IMG/VR virus record: IMGVR_UViG_3300045742_000023 | Coordinates: 1-58,311 of that record | Direction: 5' to 3' (one strand) | Source: a virus | Length of the DNA: 58,311 bases | Shown: in pieces, positions 8,477 to 25,113 of the stretch | Layout: each line of letters begins with the position of its first letter | Position numbering within the stretch: the first letter of the stretch is position 1 | Translations under genes and position numbers: made by a program | Notes under the pieces: model-generated | What the model saw: the letters and a program-made list of their open reading frames with translations, nothing else | What the model was told of the DNA's origin: nothing | The model's database searches: none

Positions 8477-9204
8477 TGCTTGCTACTCCCTGTAAGAATC
8501 TCTACCAACTCCGCAGCCTGCTCATCAGTAGCTTCCATCTCCAGAGGACCTGCGTCTACGTCGTCAGGGAACCAGCGCTTAGTAAGGTTATCCAGATTGA
8601 GATGCTCTGCTCCTTTTAGCTGATCGTATCTTTCCAAGAAAGCGTACATAGGCGCATACCACCACTGATCGTGCTCGTTAGCTGCGTGTAACCAAGCACT
8701 CTCTACGTCAGGATGGTACACACCCGCCCTACCAAACCCGAAGCACTCATGCTCCAGCAGTTTCTGATCGGCTTCTCTTACAGACCTGCACTTAACGTAC
8801 TGTTCCTTACCGTCTACGTTTAGACGCTCATGCAAACAGCCTACACCCTGCATGATAGTACTGGTTACTTGACAGTCCAGCGCCTCAATCGCAGGGAACA
8901 AGGCCTTGACAGGCCAGATAATATCGCCAAGCAGGGCTTCACCTGCGTCGTGTAGCAATGCTTCTAGCGCATCCTGCTCTGGGACTAAGTGTGACATTAC
9001 GATACAATGATGGGCTACTGTGTAGTCCTCTCTGATGTGACCGCCATACCGAAGGGTACGTCCTAAGCCCCATGCAATATCCTCAATCTCTACATCATCA
9101 GGAGTCATTGTCAGTACATTGTAATGACGACCTCCTAGTACTGTTACTATACCCGGAGTACGCAATGAGCCTCCAACTGCTACGTGTGTGTTACTTATAT
9201 TCAT
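8473..9204 (-). CDS. HD-domain phosphohydrolase (YfbR-like)
   Basis: A 243-residue protein. VAHHC (about 63-67) and LLHDAGEALLGD (about 83-94) give the His/His-Asp metal ligands of an HD hydrolase, with a later Asp in the ADQKLL segment. The spacing resembles the 5'-deoxynucleotidase YfbR group, which removes phosphate from dNMPs. Beside a dNMP kinase it probably tunes nucleotide pools, or helps make a special nucleotide; the substrate is not visible in the sequence. Confidence 0.82.
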   Translation of the reverse strand: MNISNTHVAVGGSLRTPGIVTVLGGRHYNVLTMTPDDVEIEDIAWGLGRTLRYGGHIREDYTVAHHCIVMSHLVPEQDALEALLHDAGEALLGDIIWPVKALFPAIEALDCQVTSTIMQGVGCLHERLNVDGKEQYVKCRSVREADQKLLEHECFGFGRAGVYHPDVESAWLHAANEHDQWWYAPMYAFLERYDQLKGAEHLNLDNLTKRWFPDDVDAGPLEMEATDEQAAELVEILTGSSKQ

Positions 9205-9637
9205 TTATCCATTCCTCAGGTACTTGTTTACCTATAGCGTATTTGATTCCTCGTCTCTCGCACCATGCGGAGTAACGGGTTTTACTATTCTTTGATATGA
9301 GATTATCTTGTTCGAACAGCAGTCTTATATCTAGATCAGGGTGCTGCTCAATAACCTCACTCATCTTTCTTCTATCAGCCGCAGTCCATAGACCTTTAAT
9401 CTCTACGATTAGTTCCCCTATACATAGGTCAGGAGTGTATCTTCTAGTCTTTGCTGGCTCTACGAATATGATAGTCTTTGCTTCGTACTCAAATTTAATC
9501 TTTCGTTTCTTTAAGTCTTGGGCTACATCAGCCTCTAGCCATGAACGATACGGAGGGGGTGGAGCTAGTCTCTTTCCCCTACGCTCTTCAAGGGGTAGGT
9601 ACTTCTTCGCCTGCTTCCCGTAGCGCTTTCTCGGCAT
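9191..9637 (-). CDS. T7-type endonuclease I (Holliday junction resolvase)
   Basis: A 148-residue basic protein matching the size of T7 gp3. It has YRSWLE (about 31-36, first acidic residue), YTPDLCI (about 67-73) and IVEIKG (about 77-82), the PD-(D/E)xK core of phage endonuclease I. It cleaves branched DNA before packaging and can help degrade host DNA. GGGAGGT precedes the ATG. It overlaps the exonuclease gene upstream by 50 bases and the HD gene downstream by 14. Confidence 0.88.
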   Translation of the reverse strand: MPRKRYGKQAKKYLPLEERRGKRLAPPPPYRSWLEADVAQDLKKRKIKFEYEAKTIIFVEPAKTRRYTPDLCIGELIVEIKGLWTAADRRKMSEVIEQHPDLDIRLLFEQDNLISKNSKTRYSAWCERRGIKYAIGKQVPEEWINEYK

Positions 9638-10508
9638 GTTGACCTCCCATAGTTATTAGTATTTGTACCTCATCAACGATATCCTCCAGCGTAGCGTTAA
9701 CTACACGACCATCCCAAGCAGTGTACCTGTACTTACCCTCTACTAACTCCATATCAGTTGGTTTAGGTAGGTCAGAGTTTAGGTACTCAGCCCACTTAGC
9801 CTCACATACTTCTCTTAGCACTTCCTCTGTAGGGTTTACAAGAGAGAGTATTTTCTTGGCTGTCACGGGACCGCATCTGTGGATGCCCGGTATGTTGTCT
9901 ACGCTTAGGTCGCCGGTCAGTACTTGCTGGTACTTTTTCTGTATGCCTACCTCTGGCGTAACTAGAAACTTTTTCTTAGTCACCCAATTGAAGTGCTTAC
10001 CGGGAACCTGTAGCAGGTCCTTGTCTACTGTTACTATTACAGTGCTGTCATTCTGTGCTAAGGCCAGAGCATCATCTGCCTCTACACTAGTAAACACCTG
10101 CGCACCTTTTTGGTCTATCAGATACTTCCTCATATCAGCGTAGTGTACTGGCTTAACTGCATCTTTACGATTGCCTTTATACTCCAGCATGGTTGCTATG
10201 TTATGACGAAAGCACTGACCCTCGCTTAAGAATACCAGAGGGTTAGAGTCTCCTGTTATCTCTCCTATATAGCTCAGGGAAGTATTCAGGTTTGTTAGTG
10301 CGTGGTTAAGGGGACTGACTTCCTTCTCCCGTACTACCTCAAACCCCTCAGGATTCTCTTGCTTACTTAAGAACTCTTTTACCTCCTTGTTTACGTAGGA
10401 CTGGAAGGTGGGAATACCCACCTCCCTATCCACTACAGTATACAGAGTTTTCTCAGCCGCAAAGCCACAGCGGTAGACTAATACATCTCCATCTACTAAC
10501 GCTCTCAT
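9588..10508 (-). CDS. 5'-3' exonuclease / flap endonuclease (FEN family)
   Basis: A 306-residue protein. It has DGD at residues 7-9, EADDALA near 141-147, VDKDLLQ near 158-164 and the helix-3-turn-helix GDLSVDNIPGIHRCG near 198-212, which are the metal and DNA-binding motifs of the T5 D15/T7 gp6 group. It removes RNA primers and flaps during replication and recombination. The family A polymerase in this genome lacks its own 5' nuclease domain, so this gene supplies that activity separately. Its ATG overlaps the preceding microORF stop (TAATG). Confidence 0.92.
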   Translation of the reverse strand: MRALVDGDVLVYRCGFAAEKTLYTVVDREVGIPTFQSYVNKEVKEFLSKQENPEGFEVVREKEVSPLNHALTNLNTSLSYIGEITGDSNPLVFLSEGQCFRHNIATMLEYKGNRKDAVKPVHYADMRKYLIDQKGAQVFTSVEADDALALAQNDSTVIVTVDKDLLQVPGKHFNWVTKKKFLVTPEVGIQKKYQQVLTGDLSVDNIPGIHRCGPVTAKKILSLVNPTEEVLREVCEAKWAEYLNSDLPKPTDMELVEGKYRYTAWDGRVVNATLEDIVDEVQILITMGGQHAEKALREAGEEVPTP

Positions 10509-10600
10509 TACGGTCTCCTGTCTCTGCTCATATCTTTAATCATCAACCATATAATTAGGATTGGTATTCCTATCGCGGTTGCCTTCCACACCCAGTCCAT
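10508..10600 (-). CDS. 30-residue single-span membrane miniprotein
   Basis: The ORF from ATG 10600 encodes 30 residues: a hydrophobic span (ATAIGIPILIIWLMI) followed by a charged tail (KDMSRDRRP). It begins one base after the upstream stop and ends in a TAATG overlap with the exonuclease gene, so it fills the gap exactly. I see no strong ribosome site of its own; coupling to the upstream gene would be needed. A real gene is plausible but unproven. Confidence 0.45.
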   Translation of the reverse strand: MDWVWKATAIGIPILIIWLMIKDMSRDRRP

Positions 10601-10601
10601 A

Positions 10602-10931
10602 TCAGTGAGTGCTTTGACGTGCTTCGGCATCCGGGAAGTCAAGCGTTGTTTGCTCCAACGTCCCTTCGATTTGCTTTGCCATTAAGTCTGACAAGGCTGA
10701 TACCCAATCACGTGCGGCTTGGTACTGCCGCGTTTCTACTTCCATCAGGTTAGTGGTACGATTGAAGACACCATACACGGGGATGGGTACCCCGTCCAGT
10801 ACCTTAATAACCGGGGCTACCCGATAGAAAGGACTAGAGATATCTTCAATAGTCTCACCAAACTTAATGTCGTCCATCTGTGAGGACAGGCTATCTTCTA
10901 CATACTGCACGAACTCTTTACTAAACTTCAT
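10602..10931 (-). CDS. Hypothetical protein
   Basis: A 109-residue soluble acidic protein preceded by AGGAGAATGTA. It has an N-terminal helix (VQYVEDSLSSQMDDI) and a central beta-rich part. No motif is recognised. It lies between the SSB-like gene and the exonuclease, and its leader carries the folded element at 10951-11017. Confidence 0.65.
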   Translation of the reverse strand: MKFSKEFVQYVEDSLSSQMDDIKFGETIEDISSPFYRVAPVIKVLDGVPIPVYGVFNRTTNLMEVETRQYQAARDWVSALSDLMAKQIEGTLEQTTLDFPDAEARQSTH

Positions 10932-10950
10932 TACATTCTCCTGTAAGGGT

Positions 10951-11017
10951 GGGCGGACAGATCGCTCTGTTTAGATGCGCCGACCGGGAATCCCCAATCC
11001 TGTCCGCATCTCCGCCC
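10951..11017 (-). other. Structured leader with competing stems
   Basis: Three perfect inverted pairings share bases: 10953-10960 with 11000-11007 (GCGGACAG/CTGTCCGC), 10951-10957 with 11011-11017 (GGGCGGA/TCCGCCC), and 10973-10979 with 11005-11011 (AGATGCG/CGCATCT). They cannot all form at once. The element lies in the gap between the 59-residue gene and the 109-residue gene, about 20 bases before the latter's start on the minus strand. It could act as an attenuator, an RNA switch or a processing site. No poly-T follows, so it is not a classical terminator. Confidence 0.45.
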
Positions 11018-11026
11018 ATTGTTATA

Positions 11027-11206
11027 TTAACTTGCGCTTCGTTGGCGCATCAAGGTTTTCTTAAGCCTTTGATAGTGGCTTCGTTGACACTGCGGGGCTA
11101 GCATGATTACTCCGTTAGCACCCTGAGTGTAGAGAGGATCGGTACTCGCAAACGAGTACCTCTCCTTTACGTACTGCCTAATAGACTTAGCTAACTTGCC
11201 TCTCAT
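11027..11206 (-). CDS. 59-residue basic hypothetical protein
   Basis: The ORF starts at ATG 11206, overlapping the upstream TAA (TAATG), with GGAGG five bases before it. The product is 59 residues and highly basic, beginning MRGKLAKSIRQYVKERY and ending in a Lys/Arg cluster (YQRLKKTLMRQRS). The ribosome site and exact junction make it a convincing gene. Nucleic-acid binding is suggested by charge only. Confidence 0.7.
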   Translation of the reverse strand: MRGKLAKSIRQYVKERYSFASTDPLYTQGANGVIMLAPQCQRSHYQRLKKTLMRQRSAS

Positions 11207-11694
11207 TATGCCTCCATTGGATCGTAATCATCCCCCGGTCCCGGTGCATCATCGTCCTGTACTGCTGAGACGAAAGGCTCAGGGTTGATACAGTTCTTGT
11301 AAATCTTGAGAGTCAATTCATCTAGCAACGCTGCTGCATTATCGAATGCCTTGCCTTTAGCCCCAAGCGTAACAGCGTCTGCTTGGATAAGGCTACCTAA
11401 CAGGGTAGCAGCTACCTTATAGCAGGACTGTACCACGATGCTGCTTTGCCGTGCATCCCCTGTCAAGGTTGCTGCTGTGCTAGCAGAACTAGCAGCCTGA
11501 GCTGGTGGAGCAGTTGGCTTAACCGCACCTGCGTTCCAGTACTTGCCTTTCTGCGTAGCCTCAAACTCTACGTACTGTCCCTCTAGGCTACTGTAATCAT
11601 CTTTGTATGTACCATACCAAGTATCATTCACGTTAATAGAGTGAATGTTATTATCATTTCGGTACGCTTTTGTTAATACGCCTTGAACTTTCAT
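11206..11694 (-). CDS. Candidate single-stranded DNA-binding protein
   Basis: A 162-residue protein directly downstream of DNA polymerase with a 4-base overlap. The first ~55 residues look like a beta-rich OB-type fold (GVLTKAYRND..., YVEFEATQKGKYWNAG). An Ala/Ser/Pro linker follows, then a helical part. The tail is acidic (QDDDAPGPGDDYDPMEA), like the tails of T7 gp2.5 and bacterial SSB that recruit polymerase and helicase. Assignment rests on position, tail and predicted fold, not on a recognised family signature. A generic replication accessory protein is the alternative. Confidence 0.55.
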   Translation of the reverse strand: MKVQGVLTKAYRNDNNIHSINVNDTWYGTYKDDYSSLEGQYVEFEATQKGKYWNAGAVKPTAPPAQAASSASTAATLTGDARQSSIVVQSCYKVAATLLGSLIQADAVTLGAKGKAFDNAAALLDELTLKIYKNCINPEPFVSAVQDDDAPGPGDDYDPMEA

Positions 11695-13583
11695 TCCTTC
11701 CTTTCTCCTGTTTTATCGAATGGGGTTGGGATAGATACTTTAATCTCGTCCTCCCCTTCGGGTAGTTCCCCCCAATATTTTCCAATGGTAATACCAACGC
11801 CAAGGGGGACTGAAAACTGCACGTCGTATACCTTATCTAAGTAGCTATACACATCATGTGATAGCGATTGAATCATTACATCTTTGTACAACTGAACTTC
11901 TTCCGGGTGTATCTCTGCTTCCAGAGAATCATGCACTGTGTTTACTAAGAACGTCTGTGCTCCCCGTAATCTGTACCAAGCATACGCAAGTCCTATTGGG
12001 ATAATGTCAGCGGTTGCAAAACTTTGTATTGGTATATTAAATACCTTGGTCCGCACATTTAAATATCCTGTGTGACTTACACGGGCCTCTGGGTAGTAGA
12101 AGGTCATGCCCCACTCAGTAGTAAACTGTTTATTGTTACCTACCTGAATGCACCATGACTCCTGCGTATCCTTCAATGAGGAGTACTTCTCCCCAAAGGC
12201 TTCGTAGTATGCCTTCTCTGCGTCTGTTCCTGATCTACCTCCGTATAGTGGTTTAAATGTATGTGCCTTTGCCGTGGTTCTAGTTATATCCTTACCACCG
12301 TGGGCAGAAATAACCTCTTGTGTATATAGATGGACATCATATCCTTCTAAAAGTTCCCGTCTAATTACATCATCGTCACCTATATGTCCGGCTACCCGGA
12401 ACTCTAGCTGTGCTCCATCGGCTTCGCCTATAAGCCAGCCCTCATTGCGCGGAGAGAACAATCTCTTGTACGCCCTTGGCAAGTTATGGAACTGGCATCC
12501 CTTCTCAGCATCGAACATCTTGTAATAAACTGAGCGTCCAGAGGAGGCTAGTCTATGGGTGACAGCACGCCCCTGTCTAAGTTCCGCATAGATAATACCG
12601 TCCTGTTCCCTACAAGCACCTACAAACATAGACAAGTTCTTATCTAGAGCAGCGGACAACTGTCCCTGTCTCTTCTTGAGTTTAATAAACTCTCTCTGCT
12701 TGTCTGTTGTAGGATTCAGGGATAGCAGGGTAGCCTCATCTGTCTTAGGCATACCGTCCGGGAATTGTTTATTAGGCTTGTTCCTGATAAAGTTCCCGCG
12801 CCTGTCCTTAGCCTCAGCAAATCCTAACTCTCCGTACACGAAGGTAGCTACCTGTGGAGGTGACTTCGGGTTGATACCACCAGTCAATATGTCCAGCTTG
12901 TCTCTAACTTCTATGTACCTAGCGAGAGTCTTGTTGTACTCTTCCTCTACCCTAGCTGCGTCAAGATGTAGTCCGTTTCTTTCTATATCCGCCAGAGGCG
13001 GTATGACTATACATCTAGTGAACACGATGGGTAGTAGTCTAGTATCCTCCATCTCTGACAACTGTGCGTAGAAAAGTTCCTCAGTCTTTGCTACGTCTAA
13101 GTCGCAGTACTTCAACAAAAGGCTACGAGGTATGTCAGAAGGACAGACACCAGCGTTTATTAAATTACTAACCACGCTCAGCTTACCGGGAAGGTTGCGC
13201 CTATTCATACATTCCTCTAGGCTAAGTCTCCACCGTCTGTTCCCCGCTATAACCCACTCTGCTGCGAAGGTGCAGTAGACTAGGACTGTGCCTATGTCTA
13301 GCCCACATCTATGTAGCCACTGCAATTCAAACTTTGCGTTGTGTGCTACAAGGAAGTCTGCTTCTCTGCAAGCCTTGACTAACTCAGCCTGATCGAACTC
13401 TCCCCCCCAACAGTAGTGCTTAGTGCCCCGGAACTTCCAGCAGGACAAGACAACTCGGTTATCCTCTACTAGAGCGCTACCATGCTCTATGTTGGTAGTC
13501 TCAAAGTCTAGGAACAGAGGTTCTCCTGTCCTGTATATCTCTGGGTCTGGTCGTTCTAACCACGGTGGTAGGTAAGTACTCAT
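11691..13583 (-). CDS. Family A DNA polymerase with 3'-5' exonuclease domain
   Basis: A 630-residue replicative polymerase. The N-terminal proofreading domain shows LDFETT (25-30, Asp and Glu) and VAHNAKFE (near 95). The palm motifs are EADGAQLEFRV (about 387-397, motif A), RTTAKAHTFKPLYGG (about 432-446, motif B) and VNTVHDSLEAEI (about 545-556, motif C with HD). No 5' nuclease domain is present. It fits the size range of T7-like phage polymerases but lacks an obvious thioredoxin-binding insert. It starts in a 4-base overlap with the phosphoesterase gene. Confidence 0.95.
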   Translation of the reverse strand: MSTYLPPWLERPDPEIYRTGEPLFLDFETTNIEHGSALVEDNRVVLSCWKFRGTKHYCWGGEFDQAELVKACREADFLVAHNAKFELQWLHRCGLDIGTVLVYCTFAAEWVIAGNRRWRLSLEECMNRRNLPGKLSVVSNLINAGVCPSDIPRSLLLKYCDLDVAKTEELFYAQLSEMEDTRLLPIVFTRCIVIPPLADIERNGLHLDAARVEEEYNKTLARYIEVRDKLDILTGGINPKSPPQVATFVYGELGFAEAKDRRGNFIRNKPNKQFPDGMPKTDEATLLSLNPTTDKQREFIKLKKRQGQLSAALDKNLSMFVGACREQDGIIYAELRQGRAVTHRLASSGRSVYYKMFDAEKGCQFHNLPRAYKRLFSPRNEGWLIGEADGAQLEFRVAGHIGDDDVIRRELLEGYDVHLYTQEVISAHGGKDITRTTAKAHTFKPLYGGRSGTDAEKAYYEAFGEKYSSLKDTQESWCIQVGNNKQFTTEWGMTFYYPEARVSHTGYLNVRTKVFNIPIQSFATADIIPIGLAYAWYRLRGAQTFLVNTVHDSLEAEIHPEEVQLYKDVMIQSLSHDVYSYLDKVYDVQFSVPLGVGITIGKYWGELPEGEDEIKVSIPTPFDKTGERKE

Positions 13584-14092
13584 AAGCCCACCTTAATGCC
13601 TCTACTAGAGAAGGTATCAAGTACCTCATCCAGTCTCCTAGGAATACCACCAACACTCTCTACGCAAGCGTTGTAGTAGCGCGGGTCAGGGATACTCTGC
13701 TTGTGTACATGCCCGTGTACGTTAACTCTGCCCCTCAATTCTAGTTCATGGATAGGAGCATGTGATAACCACATACTTTTATATGCCCACAAACCGGGAC
13801 GAATAACATTAAACACTTCTCTGTATACATCCAAAGAGTATCCGTCGTGGTTGCCCATGATAAGATGCTTTGAGCCGGGCCAATTCTTCATACGTAACAG
13901 AGCCTCCCTCTTCCACGCTACGTCCCCTAGCACCCATACCACGGAATTACCCCGAACTACTGAACGCCAGTTATCCTCAAGCCATGCGTCGTGCTCCTCT
14001 ATTGATTCTCCTTTCCTTACGTCACCCGACCAAGCTAGTAAATTCTTATGGCCAAGATGTAGGTCGGAGATAAAGAATATATTAGTGCTCAT
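13580..14092 (-). CDS. Calcineurin-like metallophosphoesterase
   Basis: A 170-residue protein with the complete metallophosphoesterase motif set: DLHLGH (10-15), GDV (about 57), GNHD (about 79-82), SHAP (about 110) and HGHVH (about 124-128). Similar short phage proteins are annotated as phosphoesterases or possible 2',3'-cyclic phosphatases. The substrate is unknown. It overlaps both the helicase and polymerase genes, so it belongs to the replication operon. Confidence 0.88.
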   Translation of the reverse strand: MSTNIFFISDLHLGHKNLLAWSGDVRKGESIEEHDAWLEDNWRSVVRGNSVVWVLGDVAWKREALLRMKNWPGSKHLIMGNHDGYSLDVYREVFNVIRPGLWAYKSMWLSHAPIHELELRGRVNVHGHVHKQSIPDPRYYNACVESVGGIPRRLDEVLDTFSSRGIKVGL

Positions 14093-15296
14093 AACTCATA
14101 ACCCTTGACAGATTCCTGTCTACCATTACCGTAAAGCTATCATGATTACCTCCCCGTTTATTCTTAGCTAACGTAAGCATACGCAGGTTCCTTAGTTCGT
14201 AGTCTTCATTACTACCCGCCATGATGATAACGTCACATGCTCCGGGTATACCTGTGTTACTACCATCTATATCCCCATCGTTTAGAATCAGTTTGTTGCG
14301 ACCTGAGTCGCCTACCTGAGTCATTGCAATGCTAACGCAGTTATGTCTACGGGCTACGTTGCGTAACTCTCTAGCCACCAACTCCAGTCGTTGTGTGTTT
14401 GTCTCTGCTTTGTTGGCAGTGATGTTACGCATCTGGTCTACAATCAGGATATCAGGTTCATGCTTTCGTACTAACGCTTCCACTTCGTACATAGTACCGG
14501 GGCTTAGTCCTACGAATACGCAATTGCTATACCCTTTAGCGCGTGCTATCTCAAGCGCCTGTTCCTTATTAGCAAACAACTGATCTTCATTCATACCTGA
14601 CAATGAGGACAGCAGTCTTAAGATAAGGTCAGGTACGGGGTCTTCGTTTCCTATGTATAGTACCTTTGCTCCCTGCATTAGCAGGCCTGCCGCTATGTTA
14701 ATTCCTAGTAGTGTCTTGCCTCTCTCAGGCCTTGCTCCTATAATCACAGAGTGCCCCGGCCTCAGCCCACCACGAATCCTTTTGCTTAGTTCTCGTGGAG
14801 GTAGGTGCCACGCACCGTCCTCTTCGAATCTATTCTCTAACGCCTCTAGTCCTACATCGCAGTATTCCTCCTCAACAGTATCCTCCAGTACGGACGCTTC
14901 CGCTAGGTCAGCGTACTCCTGTAGGTACAGGTTTATTCTGTTATCGTCTTGTGCTAGTAGAGCATCTGCTAGATCAGTACCTATCAACGCTCTCTTGTGT
15001 GCCAACACTTCGGCAACTGCGTTGACTGACGAACTATCTATCGACAGTATCTCTACTACCAAAGACTCGGCTTTATCTAGATGCTTGGGAACATCCTTGA
15101 ACTTACGCTGTAGAGCAGCCTTGAAGATATCAATGTCTACTGAGTTAGCCTCAGCATCACGATGATAGTACGACTCAATTGCTCCTAGCAAAGCTGAGCC
15201 GATAGGCGACCAGCTCTTTTTATCCAGATGATTCACGCAAGCATCGAAGTCTTTTCTGTCTTTCAGAAAAGCAGCGAGTACTTTTGCTTCGAACAT
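14082..15296 (-). CDS. DnaB-like replicative helicase
   Basis: A 404-residue protein. Residues 1-150 are a helical N-terminal domain. The RecA-type motor has Walker A GARPERGKT (about 181-189), Walker B ILIVDQM (about 281-287) and a sensor segment SIAMTQVGDSG. It lacks a fused primase; a separate primase gene lies upstream. It would unwind DNA at the fork as a hexamer. AAAGGAAAG precedes the ATG. A hairpin and a promoter-like element lie in its 283-base leader region. Confidence 0.9.
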   Translation of the reverse strand: MFEAKVLAAFLKDRKDFDACVNHLDKKSWSPIGSALLGAIESYYHRDAEANSVDIDIFKAALQRKFKDVPKHLDKAESLVVEILSIDSSSVNAVAEVLAHKRALIGTDLADALLAQDDNRINLYLQEYADLAEASVLEDTVEEEYCDVGLEALENRFEEDGAWHLPPRELSKRIRGGLRPGHSVIIGARPERGKTLLGINIAAGLLMQGAKVLYIGNEDPVPDLILRLLSSLSGMNEDQLFANKEQALEIARAKGYSNCVFVGLSPGTMYEVEALVRKHEPDILIVDQMRNITANKAETNTQRLELVARELRNVARRHNCVSIAMTQVGDSGRNKLILNDGDIDGSNTGIPGACDVIIMAGSNEDYELRNLRMLTLAKNKRGGNHDSFTVMVDRNLSRVMSYEH

Positions 15297-15331
15297 TTAC
15301 TTTCCTTTTATAGTTATAGCTTAGTTAGAAA

Positions 15332-15349
15332 GGGGGCCTAGAGGCCCCC
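15332..15349 (-). terminator. GC hairpin in helicase leader, terminator or attenuator
   Basis: The sequence GGGGGCCTAGAGGCCCCC forms an 8-bp stem with a 2-base gap, more realistically 7 bp with a TAGA loop. On the minus strand it is followed by TTTCT, a short T-rich run, and then the helicase start 36 bases on. It would weakly stop read-through from the primase operon, or attenuate the helicase transcript. Confidence 0.55.
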
Positions 15350-15392
15350 ATTAACTTAGCTATTGCGTATCGAATTAACTTTAACTGTAGCT

Positions 15393-15442
15393 AGTTAGAT
15401 ACGGACACCGCTGTTTAGTTCTTATCTTTACATACCTTTACA
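15393..15442 (-). promoter_or_regulatory. Phage promoter-like element (minus copy)
   Basis: On the minus strand two TGTAAAG repeats start at 15442 and 15432, ten bases apart. GAACTA (15421-15416) follows, then exactly 17 bases, then CTAACT (15398-15393). The same order and 17-base spacing occur at 27437-27509 and 28657-28707 on the plus strand. It points toward the helicase gene. It is interpreted as a promoter with activator sites; no experimental support is available. Confidence 0.55.
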
Positions 15443-15579
15443 CTGATGGTAAAGAGGGGGTATGGTGCGGTTATCGTAGACTTACTCTGTAAATTTAGGT
15501 CAAGGAAAATCTCCTTACCTACATTAACATTACATCATATGTATAGAAAATCTTACCTATCTTTACACAACTTTTCATA

Positions 15580-16401
15580 TCAATTTTCTCCTAGGAAGGT
15601 GCTAACTATAGCCCTAGCCTCCTTGTTGGGTGTGTCCTTGATATCCTTCCTCAACCTCAGGACACGGCAGGTTCCAAACCTACTACCGTACCTACGCTGG
15701 TACGTAATAGCAGTAGCAGTAGCATCGGCATCCAGTGCTAGTACAAGGTGACGGGTAGCTCCAGCCAATTCCTGTATACGCTTCTCGTTGAGATGCGTAC
15801 CGTTCAAAGATACTGCGTGATACCCTAGCTGGAACAAGGCGATAGCTGATAGAGGGTCTTCCACTACAATCACAACATCCCTCCCATACACATCAGCTAG
15901 AGCAGAACCAAAGTACCAACTCATACCAGTGCTGTCCTTAATCAAAGTAGTATAGGATTTACTCTGACCGGGGCTAGGGCAGACAGGTTTACTGATAAAC
16001 CCTTCGATAGTAAGACGATCCCTACTGTACATGGGTAGTACCAAAACGCTACTATTCCCCGACGTACCCACAGCCTGCTTAATTAGATCACGTATAAGCT
16101 CGTGATTGAACTTATACTCGTACGCATCATTCAACCACGTCTTTACTGGATTGCATAACGCCATCATAGCAGGCCCGTCGCTGAACGTACGTACCTTAAC
16201 TGGCGCGTCACCAGCAGACTCCACTGGTACAGTCTCGATGGGACAACTGTTACGATGGCAGGTAGCTAATACCTTACCATCATTACCTGTCCAGAATACT
16301 AGCGACTGCTCCGTACTGTCACCTCCTTTGCATACGGGGCAGACTGTTCTATAGGGGACAGGATTATCCCCCAAGGCTTGGGCTAGTAATGCTCGGCTCA
16401 T
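15580..16401 (-). CDS. DNA primase (zinc finger plus Toprim)
   Basis: A 273-residue protein. CPVCKGGD near residues 21-28 and CHRNSC near 48-53 form the zinc site that reads template DNA. The Toprim core has VVIVVEDPLSAIAL (about 172-185, Glu) and LVLALDADATAT (about 218-229, Asp-x-Asp). No helicase domain is fused; DnaB-like helicase is the next gene. GAGGAGGAGGAATC precedes the ATG, and it overlaps the small cysteine-rich gene by 4 bases. It makes RNA primers at the fork. Confidence 0.9.
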   Translation of the reverse strand: MSRALLAQALGDNPVPYRTVCPVCKGGDSTEQSLVFWTGNDGKVLATCHRNSCPIETVPVESAGDAPVKVRTFSDGPAMMALCNPVKTWLNDAYEYKFNHELIRDLIKQAVGTSGNSSVLVLPMYSRDRLTIEGFISKPVCPSPGQSKSYTTLIKDSTGMSWYFGSALADVYGRDVVIVVEDPLSAIALFQLGYHAVSLNGTHLNEKRIQELAGATRHLVLALDADATATAITYQRRYGSRFGTCRVLRLRKDIKDTPNKEARAIVSTFLGEN

Positions 16402-16688: not shown

Positions 16689-16808
16689 TCACTTCCTCCT
16701 TAGTGTAGTTACTATAATGTTAACTATCATTGCACCTAACAGGGCTATAAATAATCCGACTATGATATACTCGGATAAGTTCCATGCCCATAGCATATAC
16801 TTAGTCAT
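16689..16808 (-). CDS. 39-residue single-span membrane miniprotein
   Basis: The ORF from ATG 16808 sits in an ATGA overlap with the ATP-grasp stop, with GGAGGTGATC just upstream, an excellent ribosome site inside the upstream gene. The product has one hydrophobic span (IIVGLFIALLGAMIVNIIV) and ends in LRRK. A single-span topology with a cytoplasmic basic tail is likely. Function unknown; inner-membrane effectors of this size are common in early phage regions. Confidence 0.7.
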   Translation of the reverse strand: MTKYMLWAWNLSEYIIVGLFIALLGAMIVNIIVTTLRRK

Positions 16809-17653
16809 GCGATCACCTCCGCCCATGCGTCTGCCAGTTTATCTACAGTAGTCTGATCGTTAGTAAGTCCGATAGAACTATTAGTTTCAATAGCCCTCAC
16901 TTCAAGCAACTCCTTATCGTCAGACAAGGACGCTATAAGATCAACTGCTCCCCACCCTAGATTGAAGTGCTTAGCTACAGTAGTACCAGCATCCATTAGG
17001 GTAGACTTGTCCTCCTCATTCACGTCGAACGTGTTGCGACAGAAGGCCCACCCATTCTTGTGGGCACGTACCAGCTTGGTATAGATGTTACTCTCTATAC
17101 CTATCCGTTCCCTGCGTTCCTTGGTATACCTACGTTTCTCCACCAGATCAACGCACTTACCTGCTACGATGTACGCTCGGTACTCCCTTACCCTAGGGCC
17201 TGTAAAGACCTTGGTGTACAGGCTAGCATTGGGTAGAGGATCATCAGGAGATATAACAATACCATTACCCTGAGAAGAGCGTATCATTGTACGTGCCATA
17301 ACCCTGCTTCCCTGTTCTATCCACTCCTCCGCTACGCGTCGAGCAGGTGTAGTATCTACAGGTAGCACAGGACAATCATGTAAAGCATTGAACATCATCA
17401 GCTTATTAGATGAGGTCATGATTATCTCAGGCGTATTATACCACGGTACTTCATCAAGGTATCGTGTTGCCCACGGAGGTGCTGTAGTAGCGCCGTGATT
17501 AATCACGTACTTTACTCTGCTACACTGTACTCTCTCGGTATTCCTAGTCACACGTATTACTCTAGGTAAACGTGCTCTCAAGGCTAAGAGTAAGGCATGG
17601 CTTGAGTTACCTCTAGCCCGACTCCTACTATATATCACTACTGTGTCTCTCAT
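16805..17653 (-). CDS. ATP-grasp ligase
   Basis: A 282-residue enzyme. The N-terminal third is Rossmann-like (VVIYSRSRARGNS, start). The ATP-grasp lobes include SSQGNGIVI (about 124-132, flexible glycine loop), LYTKVF (about 143-148), REYRAYIV (about 153-160) and the terminal acidic motif VRAIETNSSIGL (about 252-263), whose Glu and Asn bind Mg-ATP. These enzymes join a carboxylate to an amine or thiol through an acyl-phosphate. Its start is 14 bases beyond the 17667-17687 palindrome. With the amidoligases and glutaminase upstream it likely forms one pathway. Confidence 0.85.
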   Translation of the reverse strand: MRDTVVIYSRSRARGNSSHALLLALRARLPRVIRVTRNTERVQCSRVKYVINHGATTAPPWATRYLDEVPWYNTPEIIMTSSNKLMMFNALHDCPVLPVDTTPARRVAEEWIEQGSRVMARTMIRSSQGNGIVISPDDPLPNASLYTKVFTGPRVREYRAYIVAGKCVDLVEKRRYTKERRERIGIESNIYTKLVRAHKNGWAFCRNTFDVNEEDKSTLMDAGTTVAKHFNLGWGAVDLIASLSDDKELLEVRAIETNSSIGLTNDQTTVDKLADAWAEVIA

Positions 17654-17689: not shown

Positions 17690-19162
17690 TTAGTGTACAC
17701 TATTACCCGAAGCCTTCCAGCCTTCCCACCAGTTAATTTTTATGTCACTGTATTGGGCTGGATGCTGCGACTCAAGATCAGCTACATCTATCTCAATGGT
17801 ATCAACAGGATGGGTAGCCTCAATAAAGGAGGGGCCATAGTACCACGCTCTACACACTAATCCTGTTACGCCCATCGAGTACAGATCAATCCCCTCTACC
17901 TCTACGTTGTTTAAAACTACTACCTCACCTCCCGCTAACAGACTATCAATAGCATGACGTGCATGTTGGTTAGAGATGTACACCTGTACAGGTAGGGGAT
18001 CACGCTCACCCTTTAGGTAAACAAAGCCTTGGGCACTTCCTTGATTGTCTATACCGGACACCACCACAGGTACCGATAGTCCTCCTATTGCAGTCTGCTT
18101 ACCTCCCTCTACAGCAGGCTCTACGTAGGTACGTAGGTACTCCTTCATAGTGGAGGCAGCATCCTTGTTAGGAAAGATACCAAACAAGTTAGTCACAGCC
18201 TGATGTATGTTGGTCAATACACCCGGAGTTAGGTAGTGTCGTTTGGGTAAACCCTCCGTGTCCTTTACTACTAAACGGGACGGAATAGTCATAGTGTTAC
18301 CCTGAGAAGGAGATCGGAAGGGAGTTAGATCATCCTCTAGTTCTTCCCAAACATCCTCCCACAACCTTTGATCCGGATACATAGACCTCCCCTGCTGGTA
18401 GTAGTCTTGATAAGAAGTATACACAGGTATCTTACTGGAGTAATCCTCTACCGTAGCCTCACCACCATCATAAGGAATCTTTATCAGGGTATGTACTTCC
18501 ATATTACCAGACCAATCAGCCTTGATATGATTGCGTTCCAGTACCCATTCCAGCATACGCAGTTCACTAGCAAAGAATAACCCGCCAGTCTTAGTGTATG
18601 CTAGAGCCAAAGGCCTATCAGCATTACGTGCTAGGTTAATAGTCTTGGTGCGATTGTCTGCCCATGCTAATGCGTAAGCACCGCCCTCAATCTTCTCCAG
18701 AACTTCTACCACACTACTCGTATCACTATCAACTGAGTTCAATGCCTCCATGATAGCCATAGAATCCATCTCTGCGTCAGTGATATGATCCTTGAGAGCA
18801 GTCTTCCATGCTAACACCGTACCATTGTGAACACCCGACACATATCCAAAGGCAAATGGATGGGCCAGTTCTTGCGTAACAGCACCTAGGGTAGCTGCTC
18901 TATTGTGACCTAGTATGAACAACGAGTCAGTCATGGCTCCCCATAAGGCCTTAGTACGTAATGCGCTTGGTGATACTACGTCCTTGTCGTAGTACATCTT
19001 AATAGCTTCCGCACCTTTACGATAGCCTTTCTCTGCCCATAACAATCCAGCTGAGTCTGTGCCACGCACTTCACCAGCTATGAACAAATCACGCACAGCT
19101 TTGATTTCTTGTGCGCTAGCCCCTGATTTCCTTCCAGATACAAATCCAATAATACCACACAT
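17690..19162 (-). CDS. Class II glutamine amidotransferase (Ntn hydrolase)
   Basis: A 490-residue protein beginning MCGIIGFVSG, so Cys2 becomes the N-terminal nucleophile after Met removal. Other glutaminase motifs are RGTDSAG (about 34-40), LGHNRAAT (about 85-92, glutamine carboxylate Arg), GVHNGT (about 109-114) and FFASELRML (about 192-200). The Ntn domain fills about residues 2-250. The remaining 240 residues are not an asparagine synthetase or SIS isomerase domain that I recognise. It probably supplies ammonia or a glutamyl group to the neighbouring ligases. Its start overlaps the amidoligase stop by one base (TAATG). Confidence 0.88.
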   Translation of the reverse strand: MCGIIGFVSGRKSGASAQEIKAVRDLFIAGEVRGTDSAGLLWAEKGYRKGAEAIKMYYDKDVVSPSALRTKALWGAMTDSLFILGHNRAATLGAVTQELAHPFAFGYVSGVHNGTVLAWKTALKDHITDAEMDSMAIMEALNSVDSDTSSVVEVLEKIEGGAYALAWADNRTKTINLARNADRPLALAYTKTGGLFFASELRMLEWVLERNHIKADWSGNMEVHTLIKIPYDGGEATVEDYSSKIPVYTSYQDYYQQGRSMYPDQRLWEDVWEELEDDLTPFRSPSQGNTMTIPSRLVVKDTEGLPKRHYLTPGVLTNIHQAVTNLFGIFPNKDAASTMKEYLRTYVEPAVEGGKQTAIGGLSVPVVVSGIDNQGSAQGFVYLKGERDPLPVQVYISNQHARHAIDSLLAGGEVVVLNNVEVEGIDLYSMGVTGLVCRAWYYGPSFIEATHPVDTIEIDVADLESQHPAQYSDIKINWWEGWKASGNSVH

Positions 19163-20136
19163 TACACATTCTCCTCTTGGTTAGTTCTATTCCTAAACAT
19201 AGGTGCGAGTTCCTCTATAGCATCATCAAGTGACACTTGGTAAGCCTGTCTAGGCCTAGCGCCTAGGGTAGCGCCTACATCATAGGACGCGAGGAAAGCA
19301 TCAATATTAGGTGTTGAGGTCCTTCCTGCGTTCACTCTGTAGGTAGCATCTTCTACTACAGAGTCACGTACTGTAGCCCCTATAGTAAGTACTGTCTCAG
19401 CCGCAGCTGTCATGCCTAAGTTAGTAGCATAGTCTAAGCAAACAGATAACGTCCTCATGAACTGATCTGGTTCCTCTCCTATGTTAATAACGCGTTGATC
19501 TGAAACCAGCTTAACTACATAAGGTATAGTTGCTGCTAGTTTAGCGAACGAGTTGATAGCACGCACGCCTGCTCCCACATCATTGAAGGTTTCCCCAAAT
19601 GCAGGTGTCTGGAGGTGGCGGAACTCAATAGTACCCAAGTCCCATAACCGGGTGATGTTCACACTTGAGTACTTATTAGTCTCAAACCTCTCGTGCCCAG
19701 AACAAAGTCTCCTAAGCACATACATGCACTCCTCTAACTGATTGAGCACAGGTTCGCAGAAGTTAGACTCTCGCCTGTGAGGTGAGGTGCTAGTGAACAT
19801 ACACTCGTCAGTAGCTATTGACATAGCGTATGCCAACGCCAGTTGATCGGGACGTAACGAGGTACAATCAGCATGAACATGCACAGCCGCACGCCACGTG
19901 TCGCTGTTTCCATTCAGCAAGTAGGACACAGAATGGAGTGCTTGTAGCAACTGAGGGTAGGGTATACCCTGCCCCCGTGTACGAAGTTCCCATCCGTATA
20001 TACCTCCCCTCAAAGAACCATCAGCCACCACTTCCCATAGATTAGTGTTCTCACTAGCCCATCGGTATGCGTTAGTCATGGTATGTAGGTTGCTCTCAAG
20101 TTCAATCTCTATACCAACCCTAGTATCAATGCTCAT
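19162..20136 (-). CDS. Amidoligase_2-type GS-fold ligase
   Basis: A 324-residue protein. RVGIEIELES (6-15) is the ExE signature, GWELRT (about 48-53) follows, then VHVHADC (about 86-92) and GTIEFRHLQTP (about 168-178). These are the metal and substrate motifs of the glutamine-synthetase-like amidoligase family (PF12224 type), which form amide or peptide bonds using ATP. AAGGAGAACTCTA precedes the ATG, which overlaps the preceding gene by 11 bases. It is one of two GS-fold ligases in this cluster. Confidence 0.85.
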   Translation of the reverse strand: MSIDTRVGIEIELESNLHTMTNAYRWASENTNLWEVVADGSLRGGIYGWELRTRGQGIPYPQLLQALHSVSYLLNGNSDTWRAAVHVHADCTSLRPDQLALAYAMSIATDECMFTSTSPHRRESNFCEPVLNQLEECMYVLRRLCSGHERFETNKYSSVNITRLWDLGTIEFRHLQTPAFGETFNDVGAGVRAINSFAKLAATIPYVVKLVSDQRVINIGEEPDQFMRTLSVCLDYATNLGMTAAAETVLTIGATVRDSVVEDATYRVNAGRTSTPNIDAFLASYDVGATLGARPRQAYQVSLDDAIEELAPMFRNRTNQEENV

Positions 20137-21415
20137 TAGAGTTCTCCTTCTTAGAAAGTAAATCTACAATAGATGTATTCAATGCAGTTCCATAGTAGTT
20201 AAGGAACTTACGTGGATTTGTTACCACAACAGCTATCCCGTAGATATAATGAAAGCCTTCGTATGGATTAGTACCCATAAACCTAGGCCTAACTACATCC
20301 AACCCACGTTCACTCTTCTCCTCGCGTGTAAGCGAGCACAGTCTAGCCATTACAACAGGTGTACTAGACGCCTGTACCCCGAAGCAGGTAATAAACAGAG
20401 GGAAGTGCATCGTCTTAGTAGAGTGAGCAGCCTGACCAACTAGTGTATCTAACCAAGACTTATCAGGATCGAGGCCTAACTTAGGCATAACTCTAGACCA
20501 CGGTAAATTATGGTGGTATTTGGAATCATCCTCATACTTCCAGTAAGGAAAGCCTAGCTTAGCTAAGCGTAAGTTTCCTCCATGTATACCATGATTACAA
20601 TAAATACTAGCAACCTGAGGAGATACTTTATATCCTCCGTTAAGATCAAACCCCACATCAAACACCTCCTCCTTAGGGCACTCCTTCGCTAACTGATACC
20701 CTACAAAGGAAGTTGCACGGGAGTCACCTAATATCCTCGTGTCACTAATACATCTACTTAACGAGGAGTACTCTATAAAACTATTCCCACAATCTGGGCA
20801 TTCATTGTACTCCCCATCAAGGCAGGGCATACACATACCACAGCTATAGCACTCTACCTGAGCAGCACGCTCGTCATGAGCAGTCACCCAATCACAGCAG
20901 AAGATACCTACTAGCGAGGGGTAAGTGCCATCTGCTATAGGCTTGCTGATCTTACCATCATAGGATATCCTATAGTCACTATCAGGAATCTCCTTGTTGT
21001 TCATGTTACTGCGCTTCAACACTGCGTTGAGTTTACGCAGTCGCTTAACGTCAGTATCAATGATCTCTACCAAACCAATACCCCTTATATCCATGTCCTC
21101 CCCGTAACGCGTTCCATGTATAGTGCGATCAGGCTCGTGCCATTTCTCTACGCTAGGAAGCAGGCTACGCTCTACAAGAACGCTGTGATAGCCTCCGCAC
21201 ATAGATAGCACTGAATAAGAAGTCATGCATACGTACTCACCCCTGATACCTTCCTGATCTATGCTCAGTCTGGTTGAGGGAAATTGGCCTAAGCATATAG
21301 ATGCTAAGGCATCATATATAGATATACCCGCACCAATGATATGCCTGCTTAAACTTTCCCTACTATGTAGAAGGGAGTCGATACCTTCCTCAGGCTTTGC
21401 TAATAGATTACTCAT
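20126..21415 (-). CDS. Unknown cluster protein with zinc-ribbon-like cysteines
   Basis: A 429-residue protein with no family I recognise. Residues about 190-215 carry paired cysteines (CYSCGMCMPCL and ECPDCGNSF), consistent with one or two zinc knuckles. The flanks are mixed alpha/beta with no membrane span. AGGAG lies 9 bases before the ATG. It is locked between the cyclotransferase-like gene and the amidoligase, so it probably serves the same pathway as a substrate carrier, adapter or uncharacterised enzyme. Confidence 0.75.
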   Translation of the reverse strand: MSNLLAKPEEGIDSLLHSRESLSRHIIGAGISIYDALASICLGQFPSTRLSIDQEGIRGEYVCMTSYSVLSMCGGYHSVLVERSLLPSVEKWHEPDRTIHGTRYGEDMDIRGIGLVEIIDTDVKRLRKLNAVLKRSNMNNKEIPDSDYRISYDGKISKPIADGTYPSLVGIFCCDWVTAHDERAAQVECYSCGMCMPCLDGEYNECPDCGNSFIEYSSLSRCISDTRILGDSRATSFVGYQLAKECPKEEVFDVGFDLNGGYKVSPQVASIYCNHGIHGGNLRLAKLGFPYWKYEDDSKYHHNLPWSRVMPKLGLDPDKSWLDTLVGQAAHSTKTMHFPLFITCFGVQASSTPVVMARLCSLTREEKSERGLDVVRPRFMGTNPYEGFHYIYGIAVVVTNPRKFLNYYGTALNTSIVDLLSKKENSNEH

Positions 21416-21416
21416 T

Positions 21417-21800
21417 CTAATATACTCCTGTGTAGTCTAACCAGTTACCAGAGGGCACGGGTGTTGGGAACCTGTACGCACTGTCGTCTTTCATCACGTA
21501 CATACCCACCTCGTACCCTGCCTCAGTTACTACTGTAATTAAATCGTAACCTGCCCCATCCTCCATGCGATCTACTGCTTGGGTAATGCTTGGGTCAAGT
21601 GACGACAGATCAAACACATCCACCTCTATTTCTTTAGAGAGGTCGTCTGTACGAAATGCTGCGGGGAACCCTCCGTTAGTACGCATAGTGAATCCCTTAA
21701 CCTTATCACTGGCATGGATTAGCCGTGCGTGCTTGAAGCTATGCTCCCAATTATACTGGCCCACCCGTAGGCTGCCATATACTGCTTTAGTCATATGCAT
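21417..21800 (-). CDS. Gamma-glutamylcyclotransferase-like (AIG2/BtrG-type) protein
   Basis: A 127-residue protein beginning with AVYGSLRVG (6-14), the YGxL substrate loop of the GGCT fold. Further along are FTMRTNGGFPAAF (about 37-49) and VDRMEDGAGYD (about 75-85), where the Glu fits the catalytic acid position before the G-Y pair. Family members release gamma-linked amino acids as cyclic 5-oxoproline, or trim gamma-glutamyl protecting groups as BtrG does. AGGAG lies 8 bases from ATG 21800. In a cluster of amide ligases it could remove or edit a gamma-glutamyl unit. Confidence 0.78.
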   Translation of the reverse strand: MHMTKAVYGSLRVGQYNWEHSFKHARLIHASDKVKGFTMRTNGGFPAAFRTDDLSKEIEVDVFDLSSLDPSITQAVDRMEDGAGYDLITVVTEAGYEVGMYVMKDDSAYRFPTPVPSGNWLDYTGVY

Positions 21801-21818
21801 ATCAACTACTCCTATTAG

Positions 21819-22670
21819 TTAAACTACAACTCTATCAACAAATACATCCAGTAAGTATCGCTGGAGGTAGGTACGCTCAAGGGAAGAGAGTGTTCCCTTA
21901 TCTCTAGTATCGGTAAAGACGATACGATCGCCATCTTCTATAGTTAGTAGACCTATAGAGTTACCATCGTACAGTAGGTGAGTAACCCACCCCTCTGTAC
22001 CAGTAATAGCACGGGCTACAGCTAGCCTGCCAGATATAGCTGCTACTCTTTTCGTAGTGGCAGCACTACTACCCATGACTGTTAACGCCGCCTCTCGCCT
22101 GAATCTGTGCGCCATTGTAGCTGACAGGAAGGGGGCTGTTGCGTGGTTGTGTGTCATGAGTAAGACTTTACCGAACCACTGGAGAGCAACACGTATGTTA
22201 GCAGCACCTTCAAAGGAGTCCATACCTAAGAGATACAGGCCCGTGCTGTGTGTCTGCATATACTCTGTGCGTAGACCCTTAGCCATACCACGCCTGCTGG
22301 TGTGGGAGATACGTACTAACCTTGAACCCTCTGCGTTTGATGCGTAGCCTAAAGGTACACGGAATATAACCCACTCTCCGGGCCTGACTAGATCATCACC
22401 CATTACGGTAATGGTATCATCCTGACCTAGAGGTGTCGCCTCATGCTCTACTGAGGTAGCCAGTATATCTGATCTATCCTCCATCTGTACTCTTTCCTCA
22501 GGATCATCACTCTCTTCGTCAAAGAGTTCGTGTGAATGAGATGTAGCACAGTGCAGGTAGTACGGGTGTACCTCACCCCGTTGTGCAGGCTGGCGCGTAT
22601 ATCTCCAGATAACACTGCCGTTAAAGTATCGGTAGAAATCTCCGATAGTCGCTCCTTGATAACCGATCAT
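21819..22670 (-). CDS. Unknown cluster protein
   Basis: A 283-residue soluble protein in a 4-base overlap with the COOH-NH2 ligase gene, showing tight co-expression. It contains MTHNHATAPFLSATMAHRF (about 178-196), Ala-rich helical segments and a beta-rich end (TIEDGDRIVFTD). It has no cysteine nucleophile or P-loop that I can point to. Its place between two recognised amide-chemistry genes suggests a substrate-binding or scaffold role. Unassigned. Confidence 0.75.
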   Translation of the reverse strand: MIGYQGATIGDFYRYFNGSVIWRYTRQPAQRGEVHPYYLHCATSHSHELFDEESDDPEERVQMEDRSDILATSVEHEATPLGQDDTITVMGDDLVRPGEWVIFRVPLGYASNAEGSRLVRISHTSRRGMAKGLRTEYMQTHSTGLYLLGMDSFEGAANIRVALQWFGKVLLMTHNHATAPFLSATMAHRFRREAALTVMGSSAATTKRVAAISGRLAVARAITGTEGWVTHLLYDGNSIGLLTIEDGDRIVFTDTRDKGTLSSLERTYLQRYLLDVFVDRVVV

Positions 22671-23389
22671 GCGTATACCCTCCCTGCATCTGTGAAGTGC
22701 TTAGTTAAGAACCGTTCTATAGCACTAGCTACGAACGTCAGCTTGTCTATATCATTAGCAATACTGGCACCAAGCGCACGATACTCTATACCATAAGGCT
22801 TGGGCCGGAATACTCCCGGCACTCGATAGTACGCAGGCCACGGAGATTCCAGTTCTGTGTGGAGAACCTTAGTCTCTTCGTAGAAACCCTGAGCAACATC
22901 TGACAGAGCAGTATAATCGTCAATGATATCTGGTCGCAACGTCATGTGTATGTGGAAGCCCGACTCCTTAAGAGGGATGTTAGGTACGTACTTAGGTACC
23001 GTCCTCCATTGACCGTCCAGCATATCCCGATCACATCCGTGTACCCTACGTTCTTTGTTTAGGAAGGGACAGTGCTCCTTAAACTGAGCAACCACTGGAC
23101 GCAGATCGAGGCAGTCTACACCTACAACATCAGCTTCCATCTCTTGCGAGAGTACATGTTGCATACGCATGACAGAGGTCATGAACTCAGCACCACTAGT
23201 TGCTATAGGGGTAGCACCTTCTGCGAATACACCATCAGAGTGTACGTTAAAGCCCATGACTGTGCGCGGTGCCTTCTTACTACCCAAGCGGCTTAACCGC
23301 TGGTCGTACTGACTCCATACACTTATGTCATTGGTGCTCAGTAGACGGTGGTCTACCCACTCGGTATCATTTCCTATTTGAAATTGCAT
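22667..23389 (-). CDS. Phage COOH-NH2 ligase (GS-fold)
   Basis: A 240-residue protein. GNDTEWVDH near the start, GFNVHSDGV (about 46-54), HGCDRDM (about 114-120), ESGFHIHMTL (about 141-150) and RPKPYGIEYRALG (about 199-211) match the phage-type carboxylate-amine ligases (PF14395 type), distantly related to glutamine synthetase and glutamate-cysteine ligase. The reaction is expected to be ATP-dependent amide formation. GGAG is 9 bases before the ATG. Confidence 0.83.
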   Translation of the reverse strand: MQFQIGNDTEWVDHRLLSTNDISVWSQYDQRLSRLGSKKAPRTVMGFNVHSDGVFAEGATPIATSGAEFMTSVMRMQHVLSQEMEADVVGVDCLDLRPVVAQFKEHCPFLNKERRVHGCDRDMLDGQWRTVPKYVPNIPLKESGFHIHMTLRPDIIDDYTALSDVAQGFYEETKVLHTELESPWPAYYRVPGVFRPKPYGIEYRALGASIANDIDKLTFVASAIERFLTKHFTDAGRVYA

Positions 23390-23393
23390 GATG

Positions 23394-23924
23394 CTATACT
23401 CCAGTTAATGGTTGACGCTCATACATATATGAGTATGAGAATGGTTTAATTACTGCGGATACAAACACTTCCTGCGTAAACATAGAGGCAGTACTAGTAT
23501 CCTCCGTAACTTTAGTAGCACTTTCCTTAGGTGCTGGTAGCTTAGGTGTATCCGGGGCAGTGGTACGCTTGTACCTGTCATCCCACTCTTCACCATCCTC
23601 CAGCCTAGCTAAGGCTACAGCCTGCACAGGGCCTATCTCTATAGTTACGTCAGGCTTGATGTCGCCTGCCCTATCATACTTGAAGGTACCATCACTGTTG
23701 AGGGGGGTGATGATACGCAACTCAAAGCAGGATTCATCCAGCTTAAGAGAGGATGTGATAGCCTTCTGTATACGGGAAAAGATATTATTGAAATCCTTGT
23801 CCGCTATATACACACCGATAGCACGCTGCTTGCCACCTACTTCCATAGCAAAGCCATAGAAGATGAACAAGCCATCAGTGATAACAGCTACATCCTCCTT
23901 TTCTTTCTTTACTTTCTTACTCAT
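23394..23924 (-). CDS. Hypothetical protein opening the amidoligase cluster
   Basis: A 176-residue protein from ATG 23924, chosen because GGGAG is 7 bases upstream; an ATG two codons earlier is too close. It has a Lys/Glu-rich start, a beta-rich middle and a Thr/Pro/Lys linker (residues about 125-150) before a short end. It resembles a small virion-independent cytoplasmic protein with a flexible tail. Just 4 bases separate it from the COOH-NH2 ligase. One speculative idea is that it is a target for conjugation; nothing in the sequence proves this. Confidence 0.65.
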   Translation of the reverse strand: MSKKVKKEKEDVAVITDGLFIFYGFAMEVGGKQRAIGVYIADKDFNNIFSRIQKAITSSLKLDESCFELRIITPLNSDGTFKYDRAGDIKPDVTIEIGPVQAVALARLEDGEEWDDRYKRTTAPDTPKLPAPKESATKVTEDTSTASMFTQEVFVSAVIKPFSYSYMYERQPLTGV

Positions 23925-24094
23925 ATGCATGCTCCCGTTGTAATTGCGTTAACTGTTAACGCAGTTGAGGTTTCCAGTGGTGCTAGGTACACCACCATCT
24001 TACTAAATACAAGCGACATTAATACCGCTATCAAGAGCCAGTCTCTCAGGATAGCACAGGTAGCTTGTATATACCCAAGCAGGGTATCTTGCAT
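23921..24094 (-). CDS. 57-residue membrane miniprotein containing a palindrome copy
   Basis: The ORF from ATG 24094 overlaps the previous stop (TAATG), with AGGAG upstream, and ends in an ATGA overlap with the next gene. One hydrophobic segment spans about residues 18-40 (WLLIAVLMSLVF...VVYLA). The palindrome copy at 23944-23964 is translated as part of its C-terminus (ALTVNA). Precise overlaps at both ends support a real gene. Confidence 0.65.
   Translation of the reverse strand: MQDTLLGYIQATCAILRDWLLIAVLMSLVFSKMVVYLAPLETSTALTVNAITTGACI
23944..23964. promoter_or_regulatory. Early-arm palindrome, copy 2
   Basis: A perfect 17-bp core GCGTTAACTGTTAACGC, lying 20 bases before the 23924 start codon and inside the 57-residue ORF. 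It is immediately upstream of the amidoligase cluster. Confidence 0.75.
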
Positions 24095-24448: not shown

Positions 24449-24733
24449 CTAGACCATGAGGTCAAATAGTTTAGCGTCCAGTTCCCGTATCGTATAGTTA
24501 AGGCTCTTGATACGTGGGAACACCTTATTCCACTGATCGAGAATAGCTTTCTTGATGCGTGGATCGTGGCGTATAGCTACCTCTGCTTCATTGGCGCGCT
24601 TGATGATAGCGTTAGCCTCCTGTAGCAAAGCGTTCCTCTCCACAACATGCTTGTCATGGATACGCGCAGCTACTATACGTTGCTGTGCTGCTGGCAGTGC
24701 TTCGAATACTTTCTGTTGAAATGATGCTTGCAT
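24449..24733 (-). CDS. Small helical hypothetical protein
   Basis: A 94-residue, almost wholly helical protein with Gln/Ala/Glu-rich heptads, compatible with a coiled coil, for example AAQQRIVAARIHDKHVVE. Its start overlaps the upstream stop (TAATG). No family recognised. Confidence 0.65.
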   Translation of the reverse strand: MQASFQQKVFEALPAAQQRIVAARIHDKHVVERNALLQEANAIIKRANEAEVAIRHDPRIKKAILDQWNKVFPRIKSLNYTIRELDAKLFDLMV

Positions 24734-25113
24734 TATCCTATCCTCGCTTCAAGTTTACGGATTGATTCTTCCTTATACCATTTTTTGAACTCGTCATGGT
24801 TGATGGTACCCACCATTACAGCAATAACATTACCGCTCTTGGGGTTAATAGCGGCTGGAGTGGTCCGAACACCCCTCACCATCTTGTTATCTTCTAAGTA
24901 AGCCATCAACACCCCTGAACGTGAGGGTCTACCCTCCTCATCACGCACGTAATCAGATGCCATGATAAACGCCTCTGGACTACCATGAGCAGGATGGTAT
25001 AGCCGGTTAGCTATCTCCCATGCGTTACGTTCCATGTTATCCAGCAGGCTACCGACTTCCAGTACTCCACAACTAACGTGGGATGTTTGCATATTGATGT
25101 GTGATCTAGACAT
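24733..25113 (-). CDS. Hypothetical early protein
   Basis: A 126-residue soluble alpha/beta protein with AAGGAG upstream of the ATG and the palindrome at 25130-25150 17 bases before it. It has SRSGVLMAYLEDNKM and AVMVGTINHDEFKKW segments. Unrecognised. Confidence 0.65.
   Translation of the reverse strand: MSRSHINMQTSHVSCGVLEVGSLLDNMERNAWEIANRLYHPAHGSPEAFIMASDYVRDEEGRPSRSGVLMAYLEDNKMVRGVRTTPAAINPKSGNVIAVMVGTINHDEFKKWYKEESIRKLEARIG

Follow-up and report, generated by a model that had tools for sequence, protein, structure and literature searches.

Clusters of amidoligase, ATP-grasp, glutamine amidotransferase (GATase) and gamma-glutamyl cyclotransferase (GGCT) genes were predicted in phiEco32-like and LUZ24-like phages by Iyer et al. 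2009, as cited in PMC10580990; according to that paper, the founding prediction proposed for phiEco32 cell-wall modification together with exclusion of superinfecting phages. The products of these clusters have been an open question since their prediction. The genes follow the order COOH-NH2 ligase, small protein, Amidoligase_2, GATase and ATP-grasp ligase, and the table for UFV-P2 gives the same order, with the gene for the small protein entered as ORF22, 'conserved hypothetical' (PMC3890496). We use the label MID for the family of this small protein, PHROGs 4877/11055, whose function is uncharacterised.

The window analysed here, a viral record, spans 58,311 bases. Its DNA polymerase is nearest that of the Stenotrophomonas phage StenR_269 (42.5%), followed by those of VpV262 and Vibrio phages; Vibrio phage 1.070.O is classed as Zobellviridae. 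We compared its amidoligase cluster with ten annotated phage clusters, then an eleventh, and with 80 IMG/VR loci retrieved through an alignment of ligases in which that of the window stood first. Judged from its predicted proteins, the cluster is of the known phage type: the COOH-NH2 ligase, Amidoligase_2, ATP-grasp ligase, class-II GATase and GGCT are all present, and the core enzymes and their order are shared with the phiEco32-like and LUZ24-like clusters. It differs from these in that the cyclotransferase gene and a gene for a 429-residue protein are placed between MID and the amidoligase, an arrangement found, among the loci compared, only in the window and in one collinear relative (locus L014).

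Gene layout of the window cluster

The cluster gene set runs on the minus strand throughout, from 23930 to 16805. The COOH-NH2 ligase (22667-23389; phrog_3815, E 3e-12) is followed by a 283-residue protein with an ATG start (21819-22670), the cyclotransferase (GGACT, AIG2-like; 21417-21800; PF06094, E 2e-10), the 429-residue protein (20126-21415), an Amidoligase_2-type enzyme (19162-20136; phrog_7469, E 5e-19), a class-II GATase beginning MCGI (17690-19162; PF13522, GATase_6, E 1e-14) and an ATP-grasp ligase resembling S6-glutaminyl transferases (16805-17653; phrog_2599, E 1e-32). The Amidoligase_2-type enzyme scores under the Pfam cut-off against PF12224 (E 0.014). Both ligases of the window retain their conserved residues, which in the Amidoligase_2-type enzyme are E, H and R positions.

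The close packing described in the initial annotation is seen in the sequence, and the 283- and 429-residue frames have exactly the coordinates given there. The 283-residue frame overlaps the ligase frame by four bases (ATGA, 22667-22670), and the 429-residue frame does lie between the cyclotransferase and the second ligase, one base from the former and overlapping the latter by 11 bases. Shine-Dalgarno-like stretches precede the 283-residue frame (GGGAGGG), the 429-residue frame (AGGAG) and the amidoligase frame (AAGGAG). In the collinear relative, frames of 289 and 411 residues occupy the positions of the 283- and 429-residue frames, and the 289-residue frame repeats the four-base overlap with the ligase; the coding status of both window frames is supported by these counterparts. 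By alignment of the ligase and ATP-grasp pair, the contig that carries L014 and L101 is the only close relative of the window lineage found in IMG/VR, and the search of GTDB contigs returned none. The replication module of L101 appears to be collinear with that of the window as well: positions 8800-15643 hold a primase-like frame, a helicase-size frame (405 residues) and a polymerase-size frame (624 residues) in the window's order.

A 178-residue protein lies upstream of the ligase (23394-23930, minus strand) and matches a 172-residue protein of L014 in position (z=2.4); scans of Pfam and PHROGs assign it no family. Proteins of 172-180 residues recur near the ligase or MID gene in the window, in L014 (847-1365) and in L012 (7595-8137), and the similarity among the three copies is weak. 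Elsewhere in the window lie two very large open reading frames of 1,244 and 1,148 residues (77-3811 and 45829-49275, plus strand), neither of which matches Pfam or PHROGs at E<=0.001.

The 283-residue protein and the MID family

Direct searches with the 283- and 429-residue proteins against phage records, IMG/VR, PDB, Pfam, PHROGs, NCBIfam and PADLOC returned nothing usable. For the 283-residue protein, the direct PHROG scan gave no family up to E=1, the narrower published models falling short, and hhalign of the protein alone against the MID family did not rise above background. Most phage clusters encode a protein of 180-210 residues in the interval from the COOH-NH2 ligase to Amidoligase_2. 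Several such members match both PHROG 4877 and PHROG 11055, and iterated profiles begun from either group gathered the same 78 proteins, the window protein included. A MID profile built without the window protein finds it among 5,587 open reading frames with E=2.5e-5; the next hit is a protein of L061 (0.013), itself placed between ligase and amidoligase, and the best unrelated frame scores 0.5. In full-length BLASTP the 283-residue protein matches its 289-residue counterpart in L014 at 3e-7.

The protein also shares with the family its place directly after the ligase and remnants of the motifs RxxxxKGL and YxGxxIG. It departs from the family in its length, having 283 residues with insertions as against 180-210, in the lack of a direct PHROG match, and in the GGCT and 429-residue genes that intervene before the amidoligase. 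An AlphaFold2 model made with the family alignment (pLDDT 70, pTM 0.70) matches viral folds with probability 1.00, and the matches include MID-family members such as H9D1D2 of Salinivibrio phage CW02 and a protein of Vp_R1; this is supportive but not independent, because the alignment already contained the MID family. A search of the model against the PDB gave no match below E=0.001, and no unrelated housekeeping function, the outcome that the initial annotation had set against its proposal, emerged from solved structures. On the sequence evidence, we place the 283-residue protein in the MID family as a highly divergent member.

We then counted the cluster genes in 92 loci, the window included. 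The ligase and the GATase are each present in 91, the amidoligase in 89, the ATP-grasp ligase in 84, MID in 80 (that of L014 being counted by position and by its match to the 283-residue protein, not by profile), the cyclotransferase in 49 and a further family, UP, in 41. The usual place of MID is between the COOH-NH2 ligase and Amidoligase_2. In 72 of 79 cases the distance from the end of its gene to the start of Amidoligase_2 is no more than 100 bp, with overlap of the two genes in 54 of the 79; the distance from the end of the ligase gene to the start of MID is likewise no more than 100 bp in 59 of 78.

Since most of these loci had been fetched through the ligase, we also ran the search in reverse, with two MID proteins against all phage records. 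This returned 54 records, of which at least 52 have a COOH-NH2 ligase within 0.7 kb of MID (SJSY21 by its locus map); the remaining two, of Vp_R1, have Amidoligase_2 adjoining MID. Duplicates and close relatives are numerous among the MID-bearing records, and the count of independent cases is therefore below 54. Homologues standing apart from amidoligases, an outcome that the initial annotation had allowed for, did not appear among these records. Its argument that tight coupling implies action in the same sequence of steps holds for the 283-residue protein, given the 80 of 92 loci and the reverse search; for the 429-residue protein, of which only one relative was found, co-occurrence rests on two viruses. 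As the MID family is almost always beside the ligase pair, the 283-residue protein is probably a part that the two amide-bond-forming enzymes need.

Possible roles of the MID protein

A pathway can be sketched from what is established about these families of enzymes. Amide bonds of (gamma-)glutamyl type would be formed on an acceptor by the ATP-grasp enzyme together with the two ligases of glutamine-synthetase fold; the class-II GATase would hydrolyse glutamine, and the cyclotransferase would remove or recycle gamma-glutamyl groups. Within this scheme MID may serve as a non-catalytic subunit, bound to the COOH-NH2 ligase, to Amidoligase_2 or to both, and may present or recognise the acceptor. 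The best conserved columns of the family are two R, a Q/K-G, a Tyr, a V-G and hydrophobic positions, and no His or Cys column exceeds 21%. Given this lack of a conserved His or Cys, a new enzyme is less likely than a subunit for binding or scaffolding, and such a subunit is the best-supported reading; among the roles that the initial annotation had proposed for the 283-residue protein, that of a recognition subunit comes out ahead. With a median pI of 8.5, the MID proteins lean towards the basic side, and the ligases are acidic (5.5 and 5.8); unlike the family, the window protein is itself acidic (pI 6.0).

Near-obligate linkage to the ligases would also suit a pathway enzyme, which might work through the conserved Arg and Gln/Lys-Gly loops and an acidic residue: aspartate accounts for 51-62% in two columns, one column is D or E in about 80% of the family (weighted), and R and G positions are conserved. 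These acidic columns could be catalytic, which would count against the non-catalytic model. With no conserved His or Cys, no PDB fold below E=0.001 and no Pfam model for the family, we consider it unlikely that MID, and hence the 283-residue protein, is such an enzyme, and the annotation's suggestion of a new enzyme type is not favoured.

A substrate of the ligases, or an amino-group carrier to which they attach residues, would likewise be expected to pair with them; carriers of the LysW type are paired in this way with ATP-grasp enzymes. LysW-type carriers are small zinc-ribbon proteins whose C-terminal tail is acidic, conserved and closed by a Glu; the C-terminal tails of MID vary, often finishing with K or R, and include no conserved acceptor tail, which argues against this role and makes it very improbable that MID is a substrate or the carrier once suggested for the 283-residue protein. 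Phage early regions are rich in small genes of no assigned function, and MID might have a part in regulation or host takeover and be no more than a passenger of the cluster; its retention beside the ligases across many unrelated phages, together with the frequent overlap with Amidoligase_2 noted above, leaves us thinking this quite unlikely.

The best explanation, to which as a whole we would give about an even chance, is that MID is a small, near-obligate partner of the two phage ligases acting as a non-catalytic subunit, and that the lineage-specific 429-residue protein most likely has an accessory or adaptor role in this operon. In a more far-reaching version, which we regard as improbable, a machine of amide ligases widespread in phages would modify some macromolecule of the host or the phage; MID would be its defining subunit, without enzymatic activity, and the 429-residue protein a zinc-ribbon adaptor retargeting that machine in one virus lineage. 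As a near-obligate part of the cluster MID is a useful lead, and a family nearly as constant as the enzymes offers a concrete handle on the cluster's acceptor.

The 429-residue protein and accompanying families

The closely spaced CxxC pairs reported for the 429-residue protein are present, at residues 189-209 (CYSCGMCMPCLDGEYNECPDC). Shuffling the protein yields a CxxC-x5..16-CxxC pattern in 0.7% of cases and the full triple pattern in none of 20,000. The sole relative found is the 411-residue protein in the equivalent place in L014 (3463-4698). The two proteins have in common, in the same order, an SMCGG motif and a CxxC-x7/9-CxxC pattern; the knuckles lie at 44% and 51% of their lengths, the segments are collinear, and in each protein the double-knuckle pattern arises in fewer than 1% of shuffles. 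Overall similarity is weak (z=2.6, p 0.01, with one of 30 unrelated controls reaching 3.4). The collinear segments, motif and knuckles agree with common descent of the pair.

With its CxxC-x7-CPxCG knuckles the protein resembles zinc-ribbon proteins such as NCBIfam PRK14890, which scores below its cut-off (E 0.053); it differs in that the putative ribbon sits in the middle of 429 residues whose remainder has no assignment. Both the 429- and the 411-residue protein are too long for LysW-type carriers, and their C-termini are unconserved. An AlphaFold2 model made with the one relative reached a pLDDT of 31, and no family link of the 429-residue protein reached significance. The 283-residue protein passes from no assignment to a divergent member of a conserved partner family, and the 429-residue protein is an orphan with a zinc-ribbon pattern.

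Two other families accompany these clusters, both built by permissive iteration and with provisional limits. UP proteins are fast-evolving, of about 230-460 residues (mostly 290-460), and are encoded near the ligase (L004 4733-6124, L007 5395-7232, L011 5274-7039, L008 5636-7576 and about 40 more), with an invariant Cys usually in C[FHYW][GA]; the three members scanned have no Pfam model. A 295-residue protein of StenR_269 that we had initially taken for a UP protein is a ligase paralogue. CCG proteins (about 120-265 residues) carry PxCC[GSA] near the N-terminus and NPxSGN near the C-terminus, occur in L018, L022, L003, L053, L031, L070 and others, sometimes as tandem pairs, and have no Pfam model in the two members scanned. 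A member of 126 residues lies upstream of the window cluster (24733-25113, minus strand); it matches the family profile at E=4.9e-4, and with a profile from which it was excluded none of 1,253 control frames scores as high.

Some features of the 429-residue protein recall these families. It has a C-x-G motif (C73) and an NP motif near the C-terminus; UP directly follows the cyclotransferase in L038 and L051, and CCG genes stand in tandem in L003 and L022. It might be an extreme relative of either family, with a zinc ribbon perhaps linking two CCG-like units. This idea is attractive by eye, but profile and hhalign scores are at background, against UP by hhalign and against CCG for the whole protein and for both halves, and we hold it to be possible but doubtful. 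An accessory or adaptor of the operon is the reading we retain for this protein.

By eye, proteins resembling class-I GATases or peptidase C26 (gamma-glutamyl hydrolase-like) are encoded at L003 7137-7595, L041 1332-2060, L065 7205-7915, L067 6089-6733, L081 1368-2027 and L034 5873-6718; none was seen in the window's cluster. Genes for nicotinate/nicotinamide phosphoribosyltransferase adjoin three amidoligase clusters (L005 3613-7822, L007 1-517 and L011 14049-17187), accompanied in two of the three by PRPP synthetase.
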